In this document: positions 11,402-46,087 of the stretch, in pieces
Layout of the letters: every line of letters begins with the position of its first letter
How positions within the stretch are numbered: position 1 is the stretch's first letter
Source: Pelagomonas calceolata
Taxonomy: Eukaryota > Sar > Pelagophyceae > Pelagomonadales > Pelagomonadaceae
DNA: 64,000 nucleotides
NCBI GenBank assembly: GCA_918797485.1
Contig: CAKKNE010000002.1
Location: forward strand, 1,082,501 to 1,146,500
Direction of reading: 5' to 3'
Program-made: the position numbers and the translations under genes
Notes under the pieces: generated by a model
The model's database searches: none
What the model was told of the DNA's origin: nothing
The model's input: only the letters and a program-made list of their open reading frames with translations

Positions 11402-11427
11402 ACATATCCCGTCGACGGGGTATGTTA
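11402..11427. repeat. Solo near-perfect palindrome, relative of the 42.6-kb element ends
   Basis: Twenty-six bases centred on GTCGAC, with arms ACATATCCC and GGGGTATGT. It differs by one base from the palindrome that forms each end of the mobile element at 42589-43304. It lies 30 bp after the eIF3i stop and runs directly into copy c of the 3'-linked repeat. It may be a remnant or related element end; no second end was found nearby. Confidence 0.65.
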
Positions 11428-16621: not shown

Positions 16622-18588
16622 CTACCCGGCCTTGATCAGCTTCACGATGCCCCGGACCTTGCCCGCCACGCCGTCGCCGTAGAACAACTCGACCAGCCCC
16701 ATGGCGAAGTCCTGGCCCTTGCCTTTTGAGGGGTAGTGCAGCGGCGGCGGGATCGACGTCCGCGCGAAACCCAATTTATCTTCGCAGCACGACCGTGCTA
16801 AGCAGAGCCCGCGCAGGCCCTCCGGGCCCGCAAATTTATCAAATCCCGACTCGCCGACGCCGCCGAACGGTAGCGATTGCGACAAATAAGTCGTGCCCTC
16901 CAAATCGTTCACCGAGGACATACCCGCCTTGAGGCGCGACGCGACGGCCTTGGCCCGAGCGGTAGAAGCCGCGAAAGCGCACGACGACAACCCAAACGAA
17001 CAGGCGTTGGCTTTCGCAATGGCATCCTCGTCCGACGACGTGGGAGCGAAGACGCACATGATGGGCCCGAAGATCTCCTCCTGCGCGATGCGCGCTGTCG
17101 TCGGCACATCTACTAACACGGTGGGCGGGAAGAACGACGTCCCCACTAACTCCTGAGGCGGGATCTTGCCCTGCGATAAGATTCTCGCGCCCTTGCTCAC
17201 CGCATCATCAACTAAACCCTGCAATCGGTCTCTGGACAGCGACCCCATCGTCACCGCGCCGCAATCCACTTTGACATCCTCATTCGACGCACCCACGACC
17301 AATTGATCGGCTAACGGCTTGATCCTCGATAAAAACCCCTCGTAGACCGTCGACCCCACGAAGAACCGCTCGGGACCGGCGCAATTTTGGCCCATGCTCT
17401 GGAAGACGCCTCTCAGAGCAATCTGCGAGATCCGATCCAAGTCGGACGCAGAGCAGTCGTCGCAGACGACGAAGGGGTCCTTGCCGCCCAACTCCAAGAC
17501 TACCGGCGTTAGCGTTTTCGACGCCGTCTCCATGACTATCTTTCCTACTTCCGGAGAACCCACAAAGATGCACTTGTCAATTCCACCACTGACGAGAGCG
17601 GCACCGGCGGCGCCGTAGCCGTGGACCTGTGTGGAAATCAACCAGTGAGTCACGTGGACTTCGCGAACCTCCACGCCATCGAGCCGACGCGGTCACGGCG
17701 ACAACGTCGCGTCGATGGCCTGGAAACTCCACGCCATCGAGCAGACGCAGCTACGGAGACAGCGTGGGCCGCCCGAAATTTGATTTCCACACCGCTCTGA
17801 ACGATCTGCACAAGATCCTCGGGCGCGCCCACGGCCTTCAGGCATTCTCTGAGAGCCGCGCCGAAGTACCCAGCAGCGGACCAGGACGCGTAGGGCGACA
17901 CTTTCACCACAATCCCGTTCCCCGCCATCAGCGCCGCACTCACGGGATTGAAGACGTTGTGGAACGGGTAGTTCCAGGGCACGATCGCGCCGATGACGCC
18001 GAGCGGCCGGTACTCGACCCAGACGTTCTTCGTGAACCACACGAGACTTCCCGTGGCCCGCTTCTCATTCCGTAGTACAGATTCGCCGTTCGCCGCGAGC
18101 CATTTCAGTTTTTCGCAGGTCACGAGCACTTCCCCGAAAATTGCATCAGTGACGGTCTTGCCACTGTCCCTCACGGCCACCTTCGCGATCGTAGCTTGAT
18201 TTTCTACTACAAATCTAAGCATGGTCTTCATGAGTTGTCTCCTTTGTGAGAAAGAAGATTTAGCCCAGACCTCCTGCGCGGCGCGGCATTTTTTAATTTT
18301 GAGCTCGACGGTGTCCTTCGTGTCGGCTCGGACTTCGCCCAGGTAGGTGAGCGTACTCGGGTCCCAACACTTTACCACGGAGAAATCCGGCTTCGCCTTC
18401 TCGTGCTTCAATAAGTCAAATTTCGTCTCGGGCGCCGGCGGCTCGGCGAGCTCCTCGCTCACTACGACCTGCTTGCCGCCGATTGGTAGTAGGATGCTGG
18501 AGAACTGGAGGGCGTAGTAGGTGGCCACGGCCGCGGCGGCGTAGTAGAGGAGCTGCCCGATATCCACGGTGATCTCGTGGGAGTACAT
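16622..18588 (-). CDS. Aldehyde dehydrogenase, ALDH22/Msc7-like, two exons
   Basis: The N-terminus has one membrane helix (ITVDIGQLLYYAAAAVATYY), as in plant ALDH22A1 and yeast Msc7. ALDH hallmarks: the cofactor-site PLGVIGAIVPWNYPFHNVF; the glutamate motif VVLELGGKDPFVV; the catalytic cysteine segment FQSMGQNCAGPERFFV; QEEIFGPIMCVF; and SLPFGGVGESGFDKFAGPEG. Two open frames are joined by one intron. With donor GTTCAGAG and acceptor CACACAG (intron 17627-17802) the junction reads EDLVQIVHGYGAAGAAL, matching ALDH spacing, and the protein has 596 aa. An alternative donor 12 bases further in would add four residues. The intron is an introner-type insertion (separate entry). Substrate is unknown. 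Confidence 0.88.
17627..17794 (-). mobile_element. Introner element (ALDH22 intron), 168 bp
   Basis: Terminal inverted repeats CTGTGTGGAAATCAA at 17627-17641 and the mirrored copy at 17780-17794 (14 of 15 match). The flanking octamers CCGTGGAC and CTCTGAAC agree at 5 of 8, fitting an old target duplication altered by coding selection. It carries no ORF. Inside are two similar segments around CTCGATGGCGTGGAG, suggesting a partial internal duplication. It closely matches the element at 44221-44320, but in the opposite orientation relative to transcription. Confidence 0.8.
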
Positions 18589-21339: not shown

Positions 21340-21556
21340 ACCACAAACCCGTGATTAAGGCATATGGTTCGTCTATTAGCTATGGGACATGCTGCCCGAG
21401 GGCTGGGAACGGGCGACTTTTCAGGGCGAGCTGGATACAGGCTTGTTGTTACCCAAGCTGTGCTGGGAGTGGGAGCGTTGTTGTCGTCCGAGCGTTCAGC
21501 AAGCTGCCCCGTGGTCCCTGTGGTCTGTCCTCGGGCGCTGGTGGGCGGGCAGCCCC

Positions 21557-24500
21557 ATGGCCCACGGCCCCTGGGGATCATTGTCTCTGGTGTTTGCTGC
21601 TCTTAGTGTTTGCGGCGCCCTGGGTGGATCCTGCCTCTTCGACTTCGAAGACACCGCCATCGACAGCTGCCCCAGCGGGTGGACCTGCACGGGCGACGCG
21701 CGCGTCGTCTCCCGATACACGTGCGTGTCCGGTTGCGGGACGCCGCTGCCCAACGCCCAGGGCGAGCAGTACTTTTCGATTGGCGGGGACGGCGACACGG
21801 GCACGGCGCAGTCGCCGACGTTCGAACTCCCGTCCGACGCCCAAAGCCTTGAATTCCTGCGGTGCGGCGGCGCGGATTCCCCCTCCGGCGTTTCGGTTCA
21901 CCGCGAGAGCGGCAGCGTGGTCTGCTCAAGCAGTCGCGGCGACGACACGGATTCGTTCTTCTGGGATTCCTGCGACGTCTCCAGCGCCGACGGCGAGAGA
22001 GTCTACGTGCGGATCGTCGACACTCAATCTTCCTCTTGGGGAAAGGTCTTCGTGGACAACATTCGCCTCGACGGCGGCGGCGATGGGTGCGATGATAGCG
22101 GCGATTCTTCGGGTTCAAACTGCGACCGTAGCCTATGCTCGAGCGTCGCCGACGACTGCTGCGCGCCGCTGAGCATTGGCGAGGCGGCGACGTGCCGGAA
22201 CGGCTACGTGGCGCAGCGGACCGGAAACGGGTGCTTTGGGTACGGCGAGGGCGATTACACGTGCTGCTCGACGTCCGCTAGTGATTCAAACTGCGCAGCG
22301 GCGAGCACCGGCGCTTGCCTCGAGGGCGGCGGTGTCGACAACGACTGCTGCGCTACTTGCGGCAACGGGGGCTGCGCGTCTGGTTATACCTATGCTGGTC
22401 AAGTTGTCATCGACAGCGGGACGCTCTCTTCGACGTACCCTGACTTCTACCCTCATTGTGGCACGATGTACTGCGGCAACACGTGCTGCGTGCCGTCGAG
22501 TGGTGGTTCGGAGCCAGACGAGGGCGAGGCCGCGCCCTGCAATGGAGGCCACGATGACGCGGAGCGGATACTAAGCTGTATCAAACAATTCTCCGCCTCG
22601 GAGTGGCTCGGCTGCACCTCAGATGGGAGATACGAGTGCCACTGCAGCAATGACGATGGGGTCAACTACTGCTGCGGTAGCCAGAACCAAGCTGAGGCCA
22701 TCGCGATATGGGAACAATGCCTCGGGGAAGGTGGCTCCTCTACTACTGGATTTACGATCACAAGCTCAAACGTGCATTGGGACGAATGTCCCGGCGAGTG
22801 TGCCGCCATTGGGGGCACATTCGCTTGCATCAGCGACGAGTCGCAGAATGGGCAAGCCTTGGCGGCGTTCGGGGGCAGTTGTCCCGACGGAGCGGACGAC
22901 TGCGGGGCATGGATCGCGGTGAACGATAAGGCGTCGGAGGGCAACTGGATCTGCACGGCCGACGGCAGCACACAAACCTATCAACCTTGGTCTGCCATTG
23001 GTAGTGAACCCAACGGCGGCTCCGGCGAGAATTGCGCGAATATGTGGGGCCCAAACTCGGGAAGAAACGACGGGGCGTGGAACGACTACGGCTGTACCGA
23101 TGCTCGCATGCCATGCATATGTAGGGGCGGGGGCGATGACGAGGACTACTCCTTAACGTACTACGATGACGGGTCGCGCCAGACGTACGAGTGGATGAAG
23201 AGCAGCTGCGCAACAAAGGGCAAGCGCCTGTGCACGTACGGCGAGATTTGCCCCAATGGAGGCCCGCACCAGGCCCCGTACGGCGGACAGCAAGCAAGCA
23301 CTGATATGTGGGCGCCAATAACTCCCGATGCGGGCGAGGGCGGCAGCAGGAACCAGGATTGGGTTCAGATCGGGACGCGTGACGGTGGTATGTGCAACAA
23401 ACACAGCTCGTTTTACGGTGGCGTGCATCCTGACGAGTGCTGCTGTGGAGACTGGTGCAATACGAACGTGCAACAGGTGGCTAAGCGCATATATGCGTGC
23501 TGTGACGGGGAAGGTGGCTCCTCTACTACTACGACCGGTACGAACTGCCGAAGCGACATCTGCACGGACTACGCAGAGGACTGCTGCGCGCCGGACGACG
23601 AGCCCCGCGGGTGCAGCCTCGCGGGCTACGAGGTGCAAGATGACTGGGTGGGCTCGTCGGGCTGGCCATCATGCGTCAGCACGTACGGCCAGGAGTCGGT
23701 GTATCAATGCTGCTCGACGTCCTCGACTGGCTCCTCCGATGCGCTCTTCGTCGCCGGGCCCTCGGGCGGCGACTATCGACGGCGGCGGCGGCGACGACAT
23801 CCGGGCGACGTGTCAGTGCGCCTCGGAATACGAGTGGTGGGACGACCGCCGGCTCTCCGCCGTCGACGAGCCGCGGCGTCTGGGTCACTGCTGCGACTAC
23901 GGTGCGTACTGCTCCTGCATGGAGTCGGAGCTCGGCGCCGGCTGCACTGCGCCCGACTGCGGCGACTGGGACGAGGACGAGGACTGCGGCTCCGACGCAA
24001 CCAGTGGCTCGGACGCAGACGTGACGTGCTCCTTGGTAATCAACGACGAAATTACCGCCGTGTACGTCGACGGGCAGGACGTCACGGACTCTCTCTGCGG
24101 CGAGTGGCCGGCGACGCTCAGATTCTCCAGCGCGGCGAGTCTCTTCGCAATCAGCGGCTACGACAATCAGGGCGGATGCCAGTACGGCGGATTCGCGATG
24201 CGCTGCTCCACGGCGGACGGAACCGGGCCGTGGCACGGCCTGACGGCCGACACGCAGAACTGGCGCGGGACCAACTGGGTCTCTGGGAGCAGTTGGACGC
24301 AACTCGGCTTCGACGACAGTGCCTGGCAGACTCCCTCCGTGGGTGGCGAACCGCAGTACGGGTCCGAACTCGTCGGGGGCGGCGACACGATTTGCGTCGA
24401 GGGCGATTTCTACTTCCGAAGAGAGGTTGATCACCCGACGCCCCTCGAATCGCCCTTCCTCGTCACCGGCGACCTCACCTTCGAAGGCATGACGTACGAA

Positions 24501-25406
24501 GCGGCGCTGGACAACACCAACGTCTTCCTCGCCGCCGTCGCCGATCTCTGCGGCGTGGCCGCGTCCGCCGTGACCGTGGAAATCTCGAGGGCCCGCCGCC
24601 GTCGTCGCCTCGCGGAGGGAATCGTGGTGACGTACACCGTGGGCGTCGCGTCCGCGAACGAAGCTCAGACGGTCACGAGCGCGATTTCGAGCAGCTCGAC
24701 AGCAGACGTCGACGCCGCAATCAGCAAAGCCGCGACGAACGCGGGCGTCGACGACGATTTCGACGGCGTCACGACGACCAACGTGGGTACGCCCACGGCG
24801 ACGGCGTCCGACGACGACGGTGGGTCCTCCAGCGGTAAAGACGACGGGCCGGATGCTGCGTCGGCGGCGACGATCATAGCGTCCGTCGCGGCGGCTATGT
24901 GTGTGGTCTTGATTGGAGTCGTCGGTCTTCTTTACTGGAAGACGCAGCAGGTCCAGGGCCGACCGGTGAGGCCCGTGGGCGCGGTCGCGGTGGAGATGGC
25001 CACGTACGGACAGACGATGGTCGCCCCCAGCTACGTCCTCAAGGCGAACAGCGACGAGGTCTGGCGGGACCCCGCCCCCCGGGCGTCGGCGCCGCCCGGC
25101 CGAAGCTTTTGCATCGACTGCGGTGCGGCGATCCAGGGCCGGTTCTGTGGCGCATGCGGGCGGAATCAGCCCGCGGCGGCTCAGCCCGTGGCGGAACAGC
25201 CACCCTTTGTGGCGCCGACGCTTTTCCGGCGGCAGCCAATGGACAATAATCAAGGCGCGCCGCACAGCCTTCCCGTAGAGATCATCAGCGCCGCCGGACA
25301 AGGGCCGCCGGCCGGCGCTCGACCCGTCCCGCAGGGGTCCGTGGTACAAGGCTCCGTGGTGCAGGGGCCCGCCGTGCAGGAACCCGCCGAGCAGGGGTAC
25401 CTTTAG
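21557..25406 (+). CDS. Large type-I surface protein with C-type-lectin-like modules, frame break
   Basis: The start at ATG 21557 gives a signal peptide MAHGPWGSLSLVFAALSVCG. Then come a MAM/jelly-roll-like domain (ending KVFVDNIRLDG), Cys-rich repeats (LCSSVADDCCAPL), a C-type-lectin-like module (SSNVHWDECPGECAAIGGTF to MPCICRGGG) and a second Cys module (YSLTYYDDGSRQTYEWMKSS to CCCGDWCNTNVQQ). The frame then switches near 23740-23790. The downstream frame continues with a galactose-binding-like region, an SEA-like region, a membrane helix (AATIIASVAAAMCVVLIGVV) and a cytoplasmic zinc ribbon (FCIDCGAAIQGRFCGACGRN). It ends in a QGSVVQGSVVQGP-type repeat tail. At the switch (GPSGGDY) the paralogue at 25862 continues into another lectin domain, so a deletion, an assembly error or a decayed gene are all possible. 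Probably a cell-surface binding protein. Confidence 0.65.
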
Positions 25407-25595
25407 GTCCGTTCGCTTTGTCGAAGAAGAATGATCACTCCCCCTCCCCGCGGCAGATGGTGTTGCCGGCGTCCGCGTATATACCTTTTCTGACAATTGA
25501 CCCAGAGGGGGGCCAACTTAGATCTCGCGAGCAGCCTGTAGCACAGTCCAGGACTCAAGCACTTAAGACTTTTTTGGCAAAACTTGGCTTGGCAT

Positions 25596-25620
25596 GGCTA
25601 GCGGCGTAAGACACTAGCAA
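25596..25620 (+). repeat. Dispersed GCTAG upstream motif, copy 10
   Basis: Reads GGCTAGCGGCGTAAGACACT then AGCAA, 242 bp upstream of the second lectin-like gene. It is at the same place as copy 9 in the first tandem unit. Confidence 0.8.
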
Positions 25621-25861
25621 GCAAAATCTGGGGCAAGGCGTATGGTTCGTCTATTAGCTATGGGACGTCGTCCGGAGGGCTTGGGACGAGCGATTTTTTA
25701 GCGCGGATATACAGGCTGATAACACTGAGGAGCTTGGCTTGGGCAACAAGCGCCAAGGAGTAGAGCTTTGTTTATCGTCCGAGTGGTTCGAGAAGCTGCT
25801 TCGTGGTCCCTGTGGTCTGTCCTCGTGCGCTGGTGGGCGCTGGGATCGCTGGGGCAGCCCC

Positions 25862-28800
25862 ATGGCCCACGGCCCCTGGGGATCATTGTCTCTGGTGTTT
25901 GCTGCTCTTAGTGTTTGCGGCGCTATTGACTCTCTCGGCGCACGGCCATCCGTGTCGTGGAACGCCGCGCGCGCAGAGTGCGAGTCCCGAGGCCAGGGAC
26001 TCTGCTCGTCCGAAGAGCTCTGTCCGACCGGTGCGCCGTTCGATGGCGGCGTTGACAGCACGGACACGTGGGTGCCCGTGTCGGACGGCAGCGACGAGTG
26101 GCTTCAGTACGGGAAATGGGCGAACTCGTGGCAGCCAGGACCACTCTGCAGTCTGCACAGCGTCCAGTACGCGCCCGACCCGCATCCCTGCCACACCCAT
26201 CCAGATCCGGCGCGGTACCCAGACGCGGCGAGCTGCGGCCACTCCTTCTTGTACTGCTGTAGCGGCGACGGCAACGATTCCGGGAGCTGCGCCGACGGTC
26301 TCTGCTACACGCTCTACTCGGGCGAGGACTCGCCATCGGAAGCTGAGGACAGATGCGAAGACCGCGGCGGGCACCTCGCCAAGGTGACTACGGCCGGGCA
26401 GGTCGCGACGGTGAAGGACGTGCTTAAGAATGTGCCCGACGGTAACTGCGTCCGCTTCGGCGCGATCAAGGAGGCTGGGTCCTGGCGGTTACTGCGATCG
26501 ACGTTATCGAGAACAATGGCGGGGAATACTGTAGCTGTTACTGGGTAGCGGACGACAACGTCTACGACGCGCCTTGCCACGGAGGGTGGGGCCAGGGCGA
26601 CTACTACCTCTGCGCGACAAGCGAGGGCGATGGCGAGGACTACTCCTTAACGTACTACGATGACGGGTCGGGCCAGACCTACGAGTGGATGAAGAGCAGC
26701 TGCGCAACAAAGGGCAAGCGCCTGTGCACGTACGGCGAGCTTTGCCCCAATGGAGGCCCGCACCAGGCCCCGTACGGCGGACAGCAAGCAAGCACGGATA
26801 TGTGGGCGCCAATAACTCCCGATGCGGGCGAGGGCGGCAGCACGAACCAGGATTGGGTTCAGATCGGGACGCGTGACGGTGGTATGTGCAACAAACACAG
26901 CTCATTTTACGGTGGCGTGCATGCTGACGAGTGCTGCTGTGGAGACTGGTGCAATACGAACGTGCAACAGGAATGGAAGCGCATATATGCGTGCTGTGAC
27001 GGGGAAGGTGGCTCCTCTACTACTACGACCGGCACGAACTGCCGAAGCGACATCTGCACGGACATTGCGAACGACTGTTGTGCGCCGGGCGGCGAGGCCC
27101 GCGGGTGCAGTATTACGGGCTACGAGGTCCAGCCGGATCCGACGGGGACCTCGGGCTACGGGCCTTGCGTCAGCACGTACGGCCAGGAGTCGGTGTATCA
27201 ATGCTGCGCGACGTCCTCGACGTCTGCTGGCAGCGGCTCCTTCGTGTACGTCGATCAAGCGAAGAGCTTCGACGACGCGCGCGCGTACTGCCGCGCGAAC
27301 TATCACGACCTCGCGTCGATCCACAGCTCCAGCGAGAATGCGGCAGTAGCGGCGCTTTGTCCCGGTGAATCATGCTGGATCGGGGGCTCCGACGCGGCCC
27401 AAGAGGGCACGTGGACCTGGTCGGACGGCACGGCGTGGGACTACGACAACTGGGAAAGCGGAGAGCCCAACAACTGGGGAGGCGACGAGCCCTACACCGT
27501 GATCTACGACTCAGGACGATGGAACGACGAGAGCCGCTATGGTACTTACCCATTCGTGTGCGCGACTACATTTACGATCACAAGCTCAAACGTGCATTGG
27601 GACGAATGTCCCGGCGAGTGTGCCGCCATCGGGGGCACATTCGCTTGCATCGACGACGAGTCGCAGAATGGGCAAGCCTTGGCGGCGTTTGGGGGCAGTT
27701 GTCCCGACGGAGCGGACGACTGCGGGGCATGGATCGCGGTGAACGATAAGGCGTCGGAGGGCAACTGGATCTGCACGGCCGACGGCAGCACACAAACCTA
27801 TCAACCTTGGTCTGCCATTGGTAGTGAACCCAACGGCGGCTCCGGCGAGAATTGCGCGAATATGTGGGGCCCAAACTCGGGAAGAAACGACGGGGCGTGG
27901 AACGACTACGGCTGTACCGGTGCTCGCATGCCATGCATCTGTAGGGGCGGGGGCGGTGGCTCCTCTGAGGATCTCTTCGTCGCTGGGCCCTCGGGGGGCA
28001 ATTACTACGACGCGACGGCCTACTGCTCAAGCATAGGCGCATCGATCGCCACCATCTATAGCGCGACCGAGAATGAGCTGGCGCGCCAAGCGTGCGGCGG
28101 CTCGTCGTGCTGGATAGGCCTCGAAGAAGTCGGCGGCAGCGCGTCGACGCCCAAGGCGAGCCAGACGTGGCGGTGGATGGATGGATCGACAGCCAGTTAC
28201 ACGAACTGGGATGATTGGGAACCGAATAATCACGATGGGAACGACGAGAGGAACGCCATGATGAATTGTTGCGGCACAGACGGCGTTGACGCGTCGGGCA
28301 TGTGGCACGACGCGCCGTACAACTACGACGAACCGCGACCCCTCTGCCGCACCGATGATTGCGGCCCATCCTCCGGCGGCTGCGATCCGATCTACAATTT
28401 CGCCGGCGCCACGCGGACGTGCACCTCGTCGAACTACCCCGAAAACTGCATCGTGGTGGTCGAGAACTCGCAGCATGCCGACTGCAATGCGTGGTGCGCT
28501 GCCGCCGGGTCTTGGTGTATTAATGGATGGGACTCCCACGGCGGCAGCTGCGATAACATAGACCAAACGGACGACACTTGGCCCCAGGGCTGCGGCGGCG
28601 ACAACCTTTTTCACGACGGAATATGCATGTGCGCTCCAGTCGGCGGCACGTCGTCCCAAACGGACGGCGGGCCGTGCACGCCGCAGCGCGCCGACAACCT
28701 CGATGACGACGGGCCGGACGCGGCGTCGGCGGCGACGATCATCGCGTGCGTCGCGGCGGCGATGTGTGCGGTCTTGATTGGAGTCGTCGGCTTTCTTTAC

Positions 28801-29271
28801 TGGAAGATGCAGCAGGTCCAGGGCCGGCCGGTGCGGCCCGTGGGCCAGGCGATCGCGGTGGAGATGGCCACGTACGGCCAGACGATGGCCGCCCCCAGCT
28901 ACGTCCTCAAGGCGGCGTCGGCGCCGCCCGGCCGAAGCTTTTGCGTCGACTGCGGTGCGGCGATCCAGGGCCGGTTCTGCGGCGCGTGCGGGCGGAATCA
29001 GCCCGCGGGGGCTCAGCCCGCGGCGGAGCCACCGTTCGTGGCGCCGACGCCGAACCTTTTCCGGCGGCAGCCAATGGACAATAACCAAGGCGCGCCGCAG
29101 AGCCTTCCCGTAGAGATCATCAGCGCCGCCGGACAAGGGCCGCCGGCCGGCGCTCGACCCGTCCCGCAGGGGTCCGTGATACAAGGCTCCGTGATACAAG
29201 GCTCCGTGGTGCCGGGGTCCGTCGTGCAGGGGTCCGCCGTGCAGGAATCCGCCGAGCAGGGGTACATTTAG
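25862..29271 (+). CDS. Tandem paralogue: type-I C-type-lectin-like surface protein, frame break
   Basis: The same signal peptide as the 21557 gene (MAHGPWGSLSLVFAALSVCG). Order: a Cys-rich module, a C-type-lectin-like domain, the YSLTYYDDG Cys module, an LCSS-type repeat, a lectin domain (FVYVDQAKSFDDARAYCRAN to SYGTYPFVCATT region), the SSNVHWDECPGEC module, and another lectin domain (LFVAGPSGGNYYDATAYCSS, CWIGLEEVGG, TNWDDWEPNNHDGND). Then a PAN/WSC-like Cys region, a membrane helix (AATIIACVAAAMCAVLIGVV) and a cytoplasmic zinc ribbon. The lectin domains carry WxDG and EPNN signatures, which suggest sugar binding. The frame shifts near 26480: GSWR in the first frame continues as VTAIDVIENNGGEYCSCYWV in the next, consistent with a one-base indel. 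Confidence 0.68.
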
Positions 29272-29442
29272 GTCCTTTGTCGAAGAAGAAGGACCAAGCA
29301 GATATTTACTGCGCCGTCGAATCGCCAGTCCCTTTCACCCCCCCTCCCCGCGGCAGATGGTGTTGCCGGCGTCCGCGTATATACCTTTTCTGATTAATTA
29401 CCTAGAGGCCCGGGGGGCCCAACATAGTTCATAAGACAATCG

Positions 29443-42588: not shown

Positions 42589-43304
42589 TAACATATCCCG
42601 TCGACGGGATATGTTATACGGCACTCAGCGTGGAGGTCAAATGCGGCACTTCCGCAAGGATCTCAAAACCGCCACTCGGCTCGGCTCGGTGCGGTACTAG
42701 ACCCGTTTAAGTCTATTATTTACACCACTAAAAATTCAAATTTCAAATTAAAAGCAAGCATGCCATTTGTGTTGGAAGTGGTGCGCTTCATTCAAGACCG
42801 CGACGAGTGGATGGCAACGGGCGGCAAGCTGGAACATGTAGGATACATGCGTGCCCATTTTCGCACGAAGAAGGATGCGGCGTCGTACTACGATCGTCAC
42901 AACCCACGCATGCGAGGGTTGAACGCTTACAACACATGGAGAAGCGACTGGGATCCGACCACAAGTCTGATGTACATTGTGCGAAAAGACCATGACCTGA
43001 ATCAGACGATACCTCCATTCGATCCGAAAGATGAACCAGCCATCGAGCGCACGGAAAGCGAAGTTTGTATTAAATACCGTTGGTTACGCTGATTTCCGGC
43101 AGACATTTGAAATACACTAGGCTAAATCTATTATCCCCTTTAAAATTAATCCATTTTGGCTTACGATTTTGCGTTTTGTGTCTGCGCGTTGTCGTCTACC
43201 GTTTTAAAGGGAAAGTGGGTTTTTGAGTTTTGGGCCGAGTGCCGCGTTTGAGGTCTCCCTAAGTGAAAGTGCCGTATAACATATCCCGTCGACGGGATAT
43301 GTTA
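42589..43304. mobile_element. 716-bp TIR element with 4-bp target duplication, non-autonomous
   Basis: Perfect 37-bp terminal inverted repeats (42589-42625 and 43268-43304) start TAACATATCCCGTCGACGGG; inside each, the first 26 bases after T are themselves a perfect palindrome. The similarity continues imperfectly inward (GCGGCACT words). It is flanked by CCGT at 42585-42588 and 43305-43308, a 4-bp duplication. The interior is clearly more AT-rich than the host genes and holds one 110-aa ORF, but no transposase. I cannot name the superfamily. The intact inverted repeats and duplication suggest a recent insertion. Confidence 0.85.
42760..43092 (+). CDS. 110-aa ORF inside the TIR element, family unknown
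   Basis: The start is ATG 42760 (MPFVLEVVRFIQDRDEWMAT). The protein is compact, with many aromatic and charged residues (RAHFRTKKDAASYYDRHNPR, NTWRSDWDPTTSLMYIVRKD), no signal peptide and no membrane helix. Codon use is far less GC-biased than in neighbouring genes, so the ORF belongs to the element rather than the host. It has no D-D-E pattern or zinc knuckle that would identify a transposase. Small DNA-binding or accessory roles are possible, but nothing in the sequence decides it. Confidence 0.65.
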   Translation: MPFVLEVVRFIQDRDEWMATGGKLEHVGYMRAHFRTKKDAASYYDRHNPRMRGLNAYNTWRSDWDPTTSLMYIVRKDHDLNQTIPPFDPKDEPAIERTESEVCIKYRWLR

Positions 43305-45063
43305 CCGTGACATCGCCTCGGCCTGGGGATTCCGCGCCGCGTTCTCGAGCGCGCCGGGCGCGGAGCTCCAGTCGTCCAAACGCATATCATATCCTGACAA
43401 GTTGCCCCGCGCCGCTGGCGAGTCGAAGCCCGTAGGCTCGTCCGCGGCCTGCGTCGGCAGCAAAGCGAGGACGACGCCCTCCGCGTGTCGGCGCACGAAG
43501 GCCCGCACCTTCTGGATGCCCGAGGCGTCCAAGCACGGCGGTGCGTCGCTTTTCGCTTCGACCAGCGCCTTCAATAATGTAGGGTTCTCCTGCGCGAGTT
43601 TCAGGGGCATGTCGTCGTCCTCCGCGAGGCCGAGCTTATCCAGTAAAGCGCCGCGCACCTTGATGAACAACGCCGTCCAGCCGTTCGCGCAGTCGGCCTT
43701 TCCGGTCTTGCCGTCCCCTGTCCAATGCCGACAGGGATTGACGGCGGCCTCGAAGCCGCTCTGTCCTTGGACCCGCGACGGCACCTGTGTGTGGTCATCG
43801 TTTGGGGGGTAGGACGGAACGTTTATCCTCGCGCTGGACTGCACGTGGTGCCAGAGCGCCAGGTCGAGGCACCACCAGGTCAACTGCTGCGAGAGCATGG
43901 AGTCGTTGAGGGCCTCGCCCTTGGCCGTCATGTCCTTCATCCACGCCTCGGACCTACGTGTCGATTTCACGCGGACGCCCGGAATTTGATTTCCACACAG
44001 CCTCGGACACGCCGCCGTCCGTCACGCCGTCGGTCGAGCTGCGGTCGCTGCCCGCGACGGTTATCAGCGGCTGCACGAGCAGGTTCAGCACGCAGTCGAG
44101 CATCGCGGCGCGCGCGGCCGGCCGGAGCCGCGGCTCCAGAATCACGCACGGGTCGTCGCAGTGGTACGGCAGGGGATAAGGACTTTCCCAGTCACCGTTT
44201 TCGAACGGGCCTCCGGCGGCCTGTGTGGAAATCAAATTTCGGGCGTCGCACGTTGTCCCCGTAACTGCGTCTGCTCGATGGCTTGGATAGAACCTAACTC
44301 ACTGCTTGATTTCCACACAGCCGGCGGCCTTCACCAACGTCGAGTGCAGCCCTTCCGTACAATCCATCACATGCCGTTTGGGAGCGTAGCACCACCGCCG
44401 GATCAGCGTCAGCTCCGTCTCACTCACGTCGGGCGCCAGCGCGTCGACGACGCGGCGCCACGTCGTGTAGGTCGCGCGGACAGCGAGGCATCGGGTCGCG
44501 TGGACGCAGAGCGGCCCGTCCGTGGTCGCGTCGTAGGCGCGCCACGCCGCCGTGGAGTCGTCCGACGATTCCCAGTACGCGCCCTTGCCTTCGCCGAACT
44601 TCGGGTCGAGGTAGGGCCACTGGACAAACTGCGGCCCGCCCTCCGCGTCGGGCGCCGGCGGCGTCCTTGCTAATAGCTTGGACCACATCTCACTATCGCG
44701 CTTGCCCAGCGACAGGATCAAAGCGCGCGTGCCGCTCGCCGTGCCGAAGGACCAGCTGCACTCGTCGGGGTAGATGCGGCCCTTGAGCGGCGAGTCGATG
44801 AGCGTCTCATTTTTTACAGTGACGCGCAGGGACCGCGCCGTGAACCGCACGGCGACGTCCTTCTTAGTTGTGCCGTCGGCGACGGGAATGGTCACCTCGA
44901 GCTCGTCGTCGTCCTGGCTCGTGAGCCTGAAGTTCGACTGGTTTGCGTCGGCGGCTTCGAACGGGTCGAAGTTCTGGTAGTTCGTGCCGCTCGGTCCAGA
45001 GGACATGATACTGCGCGAGACGCGGCGCGCGCCGACGCCTTTTGGGGCGTCGAAGGCAGCCAT
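43302..45063 (-). CDS. CS-domain protein with two introner introns, three exons
   Basis: Exon 1 (45063-44329) has a CS/p23-NudC-like domain at about residues 50-125: DDELEVTIPVADGTTKKDVA, VRFTARSLRVTVKNETLIDS and the hallmark YPDECSWSFGTASGTRALIL. Exon 2 (44220-44009) and exon 3 (43953-43302) are joined through introner insertions (44221-44328 and 43954-44008), giving 532 aa in frame. The junctions read STLVKAAGGPFENGDW and DGGVSEAWMKDMTAKG. The C-terminal 380 residues have no recognised domain (QQLTWWCLDLALWHHVQSSA). The stop codon TAA at 43302-43304 lies in the end of the mobile element; without the insertion the frame would run five more codons (IKRQV then stop). Probably an HSP90-type adaptor; function inferred from the CS domain only. 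Confidence 0.78.
43954..44000 (-). mobile_element. Miniature 47-bp introner (CS gene intron 2)
   Basis: One terminal arm is CTGTGTGGAAATCAAATTCC; the other is a diverged match. It is flanked by perfect 8-bp duplications CCTCGGAC at 43946-43953 and 44001-44008. On the gene strand the duplication reads GTCCGAGG, so its GT can be the donor and TAG the acceptor, giving a 55-nt intron that leaves one copy of the octamer in the mRNA. Confidence 0.8.
44221..44320 (+). mobile_element. 100-bp introner (CS gene intron 1)
   Basis: Perfect 15-bp terminal inverted repeats CTGTGTGGAAATCAA (44221-44235 and mirrored 44306-44320). It is flanked by perfect 8-bp duplications CCGGCGGC (44213-44220, 44321-44328). 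On the gene strand the duplication is GCCGCCGG, so a scarless splice would use a GC donor; a GT donor inside the terminal repeat is also in frame. Its plus strand aligns with the minus strand of the ALDH22 introner, so the two face opposite ways relative to transcription. Confidence 0.85.
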
Positions 45064-46087
45064 CTGTTTTGACCTATAGTTTATCTCTCTGGCTCGCGCC
45101 GCGCCTTGTCCTCTGGGAGAGCGGCTAGGCTGTGCTTGCAGATTGTGAGGGCTGTACAGTCTGTTCGGCTGCCAAAACTTCTACGATGCTTCCTGGCGGA
45201 TCCGAGATGCTCCTGCGAGCGCTTGATGAGCAATGCGACGCGCAGCTCGGAGATCCAAGGGCCCAAAAAGCTGGCTCTGCCAAGCAAGACCCCGCACGAA
45301 TCGTGAGTGACGCGTCTAGTCGCGTCTAGAGCGATCTTCCCTTCCTCGAACACGCGCCGGAAGAAGGATGGGAGGCGGTAGCAACCACCGAGTACTTCGC
45401 ACAAAGAAAGGGTGACCGTGGGAACGGCCGATGTAATCCTCGTTCTGTTGGGCCCCCACCCGAAGCTGGAGGCCGCGTCGAATAACTTTGCTTGCACGGG
45501 TCTCGCCCCCCGCTCGCGCGACTCGGCCATGTGAACATGGCTTCTTCGCCGTGTGCGCGGCGGCGGTGCGCGATCGCGGATTGCGCCGCGGGTATTTTCT
45601 ACCAATTCGTGCGAGGAATTTCCCAAGACCTCCGGAGAGGCCCTAAATCGACGTCATCGGCCGGTTGCCCACCGCAAACGAGTCTGCGAGGGGGAACAGG
45701 TGAGTTTTGTCTGATTCAGCGAGATGGCCAAAGCTCTGCGGGCAGCGCAAGGCGGCCGACGCGCGCTGCGGAGGCGTTTGGTGGCGGCTGTGTGCTTATT
45801 CTCCTAATTTTAAGTGTGTTAGCCGAGCAACATTCAATCCATACGACGCGGCAAAGCACTGCGAGCGGTGAGTAAAGCTAGCTCCAGTAAGACACTAGAA
45901 AACAGGCTGGCCTAGCTTAAAAAACCACGTAGAGCCCCGTAAAGCTACAAGAGATTGTGGCATTCGCGTCAGCGATCACCTACAGCCTCGCGCTCGACGC
46001 CTACGTCAGCTTCCTCGCGTACAGACGCCGCCAGCACCGCTACACTCCAGACGCCGCACAGACGCCGCCAGCCCGTACGACGTGTAG
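45064..46087. other. 1-kb stretch without a convincing gene
   Basis: Several open frames exist (for example 45081-45626 minus and 45492-45875 plus), but none has a recognisable domain, a normal start context or a protein-like composition. The only structured signal is the GCTAG motif at 45877-45901 near the right end, upstream of the gene at 46088. Confidence 0.5.
45877..45901 (+). repeat. Dispersed GCTAG upstream motif, copy 11
   Basis: Reads AGCTAGCTCCAGTAAGACAC then TAGAA, about 187 bp upstream of the 63-aa gene at 46088. No copy lies before the following HAD gene. Confidence 0.7.

Follow-up and report, generated by a model that had tools for sequence, protein, structure and literature searches.

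The window analysed in this study, a stretch of 64,000 nucleotides from the genome of Pelagomonas calceolata, carries on its minus strand a gene for a CS-domain protein (Table 1), and the CS domain PF04969 was found in the homologues of this gene. In the unspliced gene the frame stops inside introner 1, and when introner 1 is removed a stop is met at the end of introner 2; the predicted product has 532 amino acids with introners 1 and 2 excised and 512 amino acids with all three introns excised. An earlier note on this DNA had described two introns of the gene as short elements with terminal repeats and perfect 8-bp duplications. Both duplications were found to be identical at 8/8 positions (a chance match of this kind was seen in 0.0275% of 200,000 random draws of two window 8-mers at a distance of 108 bases). 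The repeats of introner 1 are exact, and the right end of introner 2 has no recognisable copy of the repeat. On the minus strand the duplications begin with GC for intron 1 and with GT for intron 2, and the element ends give CACACAG or CGTAG, just as the same note had read them. The third intron of the gene, which was overlooked there, has the acceptor CACACAG and a left end without the repeat, and it represents a worn form of the introner anatomy. An introner with a decayed duplication is also located in a gene of the window whose protein was identified as Pfam Aldedh (ALDH).

Table 1. Positions of the CS-domain gene, its introns and the ALDH introner in the window.
Feature	Position	Strand	Remarks
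CS-domain protein gene	43302..45063	-	ATG at 45063, stop at 43304-43302
Introner 1 target duplication, donor copy GCCGCCGG	44321..44328	-	Intron 1 begins at its GC
Introner 1, CTGTGTGGAAATCAA...TTGATTTCCACACAG	44221..44320	-	100 bp; exact terminal inverted repeats; CACACAG acceptor ends the right repeat
Introner 1 target duplication, exon copy GCCGCCGG	44213..44220	-	Start of exon 2
Introner 2 duplication, donor copy GTCCGAGG	44001..44008	-	Intron 2 begins at its GT
Introner 2, CTGTGTGGAAATCAA...GACACGTAG	43954..44000	-	47 bp; left repeat exact, right end degenerate, CACGTAG terminus
Introner 2 duplication, exon copy GTCCGAGG	43946..43953	-	Start of exon 3
Third introner-like intron of the CS gene	43785..43844	-	60 nt; donor copy GTGCAGTC, 52-bp element ending CCACACACAG
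Third CS intron, exon copy GTGCCGTC	43777..43784	-	7/8 match to donor copy GTGCAGTC
ALDH introner, donor copy GTTCAGAG	17795..17802	-	5/8 match to exon copy, GT retained
ALDH introner	17627..17794	-	168 bp
ALDH introner, exon copy GTCCACGG	17619..17626	-	Encodes VHG common to most aligned relatives

Two other features adjoin the CS gene. Directly upstream and on the same strand lies an RNase MRP RNA gene (Rfam RF00030, 76.8 bits, 45423-45666), and at the stop codon a palindrome, ACATATCCCGTCGACGGGATATGT, is present (43279-43302), which recurs at 42591-42614, has a variant at 11402-11427 and occurs exactly at 13 places in the genome.

The repeat family and its sampled elements

The repeat CTGTGTGGAAATCAA was located at 5 places in the window with up to 3 mismatches, as against 0.60 expected, and 5 places were reached in 0/100 shuffles. 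In the genome searched (32,445,274 bases in 8 contigs) it has 1,562 exact matches and the reversed pattern has 0. The elements of the family possess 15-bp terminal inverted repeats and 8-bp target duplications, with one recognisable end only in the case of introner 2 and the third CS intron. They behave as introners in that many similar introns are found at unrelated positions in one genome, in that, by sequence, one splice site lies in the element and the other is co-opted from the duplication, and in that relatives without the insertion exist (CS relatives P0121, P0122 and P0123). Three or more introners were counted in an alternative oxidase (AOX) gene and two or more in an ABC transporter gene (loci L067 and L066), and several of these lie in or next to conserved motifs.

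In the sampled sequence 82 elements were paired by their repeat ends, and these contain 111/128 of the exact ends; the 17 unpaired ends, introner 2 among them, were kept out of the counts, and 15/17 fit GY (G[T/C]) on either strand. The coding strand was assigned by codon usage, with 61 long open frames as the training set of the model, the duplication octamer contributing 8 of the ~480 bases scored. A clear strand was obtained for 69/82 paired elements and the other 13, having a weak coding signal, were set aside; by the best-scoring strand 10/13 of these have a GY start. L026, at a locus edge and with a doubtful strand call, was dropped from the 69 and the later counts refer to n=68, made up of 59 elements from contig 1 places up to ~2.9 Mb, 7 from six regions that had been selected by an interior base and 2 from the window, with the contig 1 places near 556,312 and 1,537,513 left out of the sample.

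Source of the splice donor

Two models of the donor were compared. In model A the donor is the dinucleotide that opens the upstream copy of the duplication. In model B both splice sites belong to the element, with the donor at CTGT/GTGG inside the left repeat (the slash marks the splice point), and each insertion leaves 12 nt in the mRNA (8-bp duplication plus CTGT), i.e. four residues. The internal donor had already been recognised in the earlier note as an in-frame alternative with four extra residues; this holds at each site and the arithmetic is exact, and as both models are in frame, the frame cannot decide between them. Excisions are not multiples of three in 52/69 elements, yet the reading frames join, and on this ground the possibility of no splicing was rejected.

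The donor-side duplication was found to begin with GY in 68/69 elements on the coding strand given by codon use, the sole exception being L026, and in 19/69 on the antisense strand; in the flanking exons GY has a background frequency of 17.2% on the sense and 17.8% on the antisense strand (sense excess p ~1e-52). Over five strand thresholds the GY start was present in 72/73, 68/69, 61/61, 39/39 and 29/29. Among the exact ends of the whole genome, 987 have a GY start, 1,002 an RC end and 494 both, so that 1,495/1,562 are compatible with GY on at least one strand (~32% expected from background) and 67/1,562 fit on neither. Intron phase follows the availability of GY in codons (p=0.58).

Decay was also compared along the elements. 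Mismatches between the two duplication copies at positions 1-8 number 1, 4, 14, 8, 10, 10, 14 and 12 (n=68), positions 1-2 being changed less than positions 3-8 (p=3.5e-5). The CAG of the acceptor end is present in 68/68. The A of its AG is position 2 of the repeat, and this position has mutated in 0/68 elements on the acceptor side as against 8/68 on the donor side (p=0.006). For the internal donor, the GT at repeat positions 5-6 is kept in 64/68; its loss in the other four (L005, L025, L047 and L048), where CAG and GY are retained and where L005 has GC as its duplication donor, is about as frequent as that at the equivalent position of the acceptor end (5/68). By these decay counts both the GY of the duplication and the AG of the acceptor are being kept, and the internal GT has no special protection. 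The internal donor does have a published counterpart, as 4 bp + 8 bp = 12 bp is given for an Aureococcus sp. MAG in Fig. 2F of Gozashti 2022 (PMC9860276). Stop codons within 30 residues of the junction, found in 1/69 gene models under A and 2/69 under B, are a poor discriminator, and the single element (L026) that gains a stop which model A avoids does not count against the internal donor. However, model B leaves the sense-strand GY and its resistance to decay unexplained.

At the protein level the Pfam score was higher under model A in 10/10 comparisons, covering the window ALDH and nine loci selected by eye because their domains were recognisable, a test in which any four-residue insertion within a domain lowers the score. 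The bits under A and B are 224.5/206.0 for AOX (gene model joining three introners), 94.4/77.8 for ABC (joining two), 31.6/29.9 for tRNA-synt_1b, 210.1/205.7 for ERV, 88.8/86.8 for SET, 34.8/23.4 for zf-CW, 91.4/89.9 for Chloroa_b-bind, 130.5/126.5 for PDEase, 354.4/347.5 for Aldedh and 68.6/62.0 for DOT1. Model B would also place residues in or beside what we take to be the Walker A and LSGG motifs of the ABC protein, the LEEAENE motif of AOX and the region adjoining KMSAS in a class I tRNA synthetase. The relatives that were aligned (for ALDH the best 12 of 1,115 homologues, for CS all 9, for AOX 12 of 94) are without the extra residues. For ALDH, 0 of the best 12 of 1,115 homologues carry the four residues of model B; four of these 12 (P0002, P0003, P0009 and P0012) bear MMETSP transcript names. 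At one AOX site distant relatives vary by one or two residues and none, among the 12 of 94 aligned, by four. A four-residue (+12 bp) type as reported for Aureococcus sp. was thus rejected for the P. calceolata family on homologue alignments and Pfam scores, and we consider the internal donor very improbable.

Close relatives of the proteins are in line with model A. CS relatives P0121, P0122 and P0123 read KAAGGPFE and GGVSEAWM unbroken at sites 1 and 2, which is the product of model A, and at site 1 no residues are added in 8/9 homologues, including two named Aureococcus anophagefferens. P0121, whose contigs reach 92.6 kb and which is probably genomic, shows no interruption at any of the three sites and so lacks the third intron as well, and P0122 and P0124 appear, from their protein sequences, to carry the third intron with other lengths. 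P0124 starts inside the end of introner 1 (NLISTQ/VAGGPFE). P0123 runs into an apparent unspliced, full-length introner at a fourth site which is empty in the P. calceolata genome, where the flanking codons would be compatible with a duplication GTGGTGGT and a GT donor; judged from this protein, introner occupancy seems to differ among close relatives. In the case of AOX, P0165, which shares 99% identity with 53% of the query, passes all three introner sites without a break, in the manner of model A; P0190 passes two of them in this way and diverges from the query at the third, and P0223 begins inside an apparent introner end. The read-through proteins may represent empty alleles instead of spliced transcripts, and the reading of P0165 and P0190 as spliced transcripts is suggestive only.

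The GY at the duplication edge could instead reflect a target preference of the transposase and be no splice donor at all. Antisense GY is slightly above background (19/68 vs 17.8%, p=0.026), and a weak palindromic target preference may therefore add to the signal. However, the repeats are inverted, the elements occur in both orientations (36:25, 7 undecided) with no obvious cue to the coding strand, and yet GY is specific to the sense strand; moreover, duplication positions 1-2 resist later decay, and a mere target preference appears even less probable than the internal donor. Least credible of all is that an RNA hairpin formed by the repeats removes the element and ordinary splicing plays no part, a route suggested for Amoebophrya: intron 1, the one intron folded, does fold with its repeats paired (-35.3 kcal/mol, z -2.4, 5/200 shuffles as good), but the CAG acceptor is invariant, the decay at donor-side repeat position 2 against 0/68 in its pairing partner breaks the pairing without compensation, introner 2 and the third CS intron have no second repeat, and U1 genes with normal 5' ends exist in the genome.

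The evidence from strand, decay, Pfam scores and relatives thus upholds the earlier proposal that the duplication supplies the donor and that splicing would restore the pre-insertion sequence. On these sequence data it is very probable that the introners of P. calceolata take their donor from the target duplication and their acceptor from the element, with exact restoration of the mRNA. The elements are read as non-autonomous DNA transposons of small size, bounded by 15-bp terminal inverted repeats and inserting with 8-bp target duplications. The element end carries the invariant CAG (in CACACAG, the end of TTGATTTCCACACAG), and as the repeats are inverted, CAG lies downstream in either orientation. 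Insertions whose duplication does not start with GY on the gene strand are presumably removed by selection, and GC donors are probably functional and weaker than GT. TTGAT, which fits the branch point motif yUnAy, is located at about -15 of the acceptor end in most of the 68 elements, with some exceptions, and this part of the repeat may act as the branch point.

GT and GC donors and relation to known introners

The genome-wide count of GT against GC starts, proposed in the earlier note as a check, was run on strand-unambiguous ends only (GY start without RC end) and gave 369:124 (25% GC); in the sample the ratio is 48:20 (n=68). GT makes up 30.5% of the GY sites in the flanking exons, and hence GT is favoured ~6.8-fold per available site. 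The match of GT donors to the U1 consensus is that of random exonic GT (2.02 vs 1.98, n=48, p=0.42). For GC donors the values are 2.60 vs 2.17 (n=20, p=0.055); their U1 context is perhaps slightly better, which leaves compensation undecided. Two U1 genes were detected at 64.3 and 58 bits (Rfam cut-off 69.5) and both begin with ATACTTACCTG, which we take to be the normal U1 5' end. The share of GC does not clearly fall with age, being 10/31 among elements with identical copies and 10/37 among those with diverged copies. Where the copies of a pair differ in GT/GC (L020, L023, L047, L067 and L061), the donor copy has GT and the exon copy GC in 4/4 (of 69) and 5/5 (of 82), a hint that GC donors mature to GT in numbers too few for a conclusion.

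Introners of Aureococcus anophagefferens and Micromonas pusilla are said, in the 2016 work of Huff, Zilberman and Roy, to be short non-autonomous DNA transposons in which the element carries one splice site and the duplicated target the other, the mRNA being exactly restored and the phase following the available codon sequence. These introners are like the P. calceolata family in transposon nature, split splice sites, exact restoration and phase rule. Further, according to Fig. 2B of Gozashti 2022 (PMC9860276), introners of Symbiodinium microadriaticum likewise have inverted repeats, a 5' site from the duplication and a 3' site from the element, with a 4-bp duplication in contrast to the 8-bp one of P. 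calceolata. The mechanism, treated as new in the earlier note, was therefore already in print. Family 4 of Aureococcus sp. (TARA MAG), as drawn in Fig. 2F of the same paper, also has an 8-bp duplication in a pelagophyte-labelled genome and its 4 + 8 bp equal the CTGT/GTGG reading, but both splice sites are reported to lie in the element, adding 12 bp, a reading which for the P. calceolata family the evidence speaks against. The TARA genus-level genomes were left out of the RNA-seq analysis of that paper. The TARA genome paper reports Pelagomonas MAGs from high latitude only, and its main text does not mention Aureococcus.

For P. calceolata itself, the main-text parts of Guerin 2022 (PMC9481584) that concern the genome of strain RCC100 (six nuclear contigs, 32.4 Mb, and two organelle contigs) ascribe a 210-bp peak of intron length to introners, and these parts note introners with no splice-site model, repeat sequence or GT/GC count. 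Neither a donor rule nor a GC share for this family was found in titles and abstract openings of the open-licence literature, supplements aside. Judged by their sequences, the P. calceolata elements are a new introner family with the mechanism known from Huff and Gozashti.

As each insertion brings a near-random target octamer, the family might be regarded as an experiment of nature, on the scale of the genome, in which the minimal 5' splice site is put under selection. We put forward tentatively, as a reading somewhat short of an even chance, that only G[T/C] is needed, that GC survives at ~1/7 of the rate of GT per site, that GT donors do without U1 context despite a canonical U1, that a GT-only rule may have led to a misreading of this very architecture in the published +12 bp introners of pelagophytes, where the duplication begins with GC, and that GC may mature to GT. 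That intron gain by transposon insertion can be seamless is supported here from independent evidence, and a chromosome-scale genome yields numbers on the survival of the different target dinucleotides as donors and on their relative rates; the family would show how little sequence a splice start needs. Gene finders restricted to GT may set the donors of GC-start introners 12 nt too far downstream and so invent four-residue insertions, and the published Aureococcus sp. family with +12 bp merits re-examination.

A genome search for a transposase gave one hAT-dimerisation match (L114, G000:C4:4499982-4500185), with no introner repeats within ~1.5 kb, and a search for KDZ transposase gave no match, nor did its controls. 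Viral carriers of introners were considered and rejected, as the exact repeat matches in 43 viral contigs were solitary, formed no plausible pair and were read as chance. Other repeated sequences were also observed in the window. A motif around TGTAAGACACTAGC, at ~2011, 21315, 45876, 54731 and 55193, forms imperfect inverted repeats and has 1,177 exact 14-mer copies in the genome; it may belong to a further small mobile element or be a signal for regulation or for gene ends. A segmental duplication at ~21547-29408 consists of several blocks which are 88-100% identical with spacings of ~3.5-4.8 kb.
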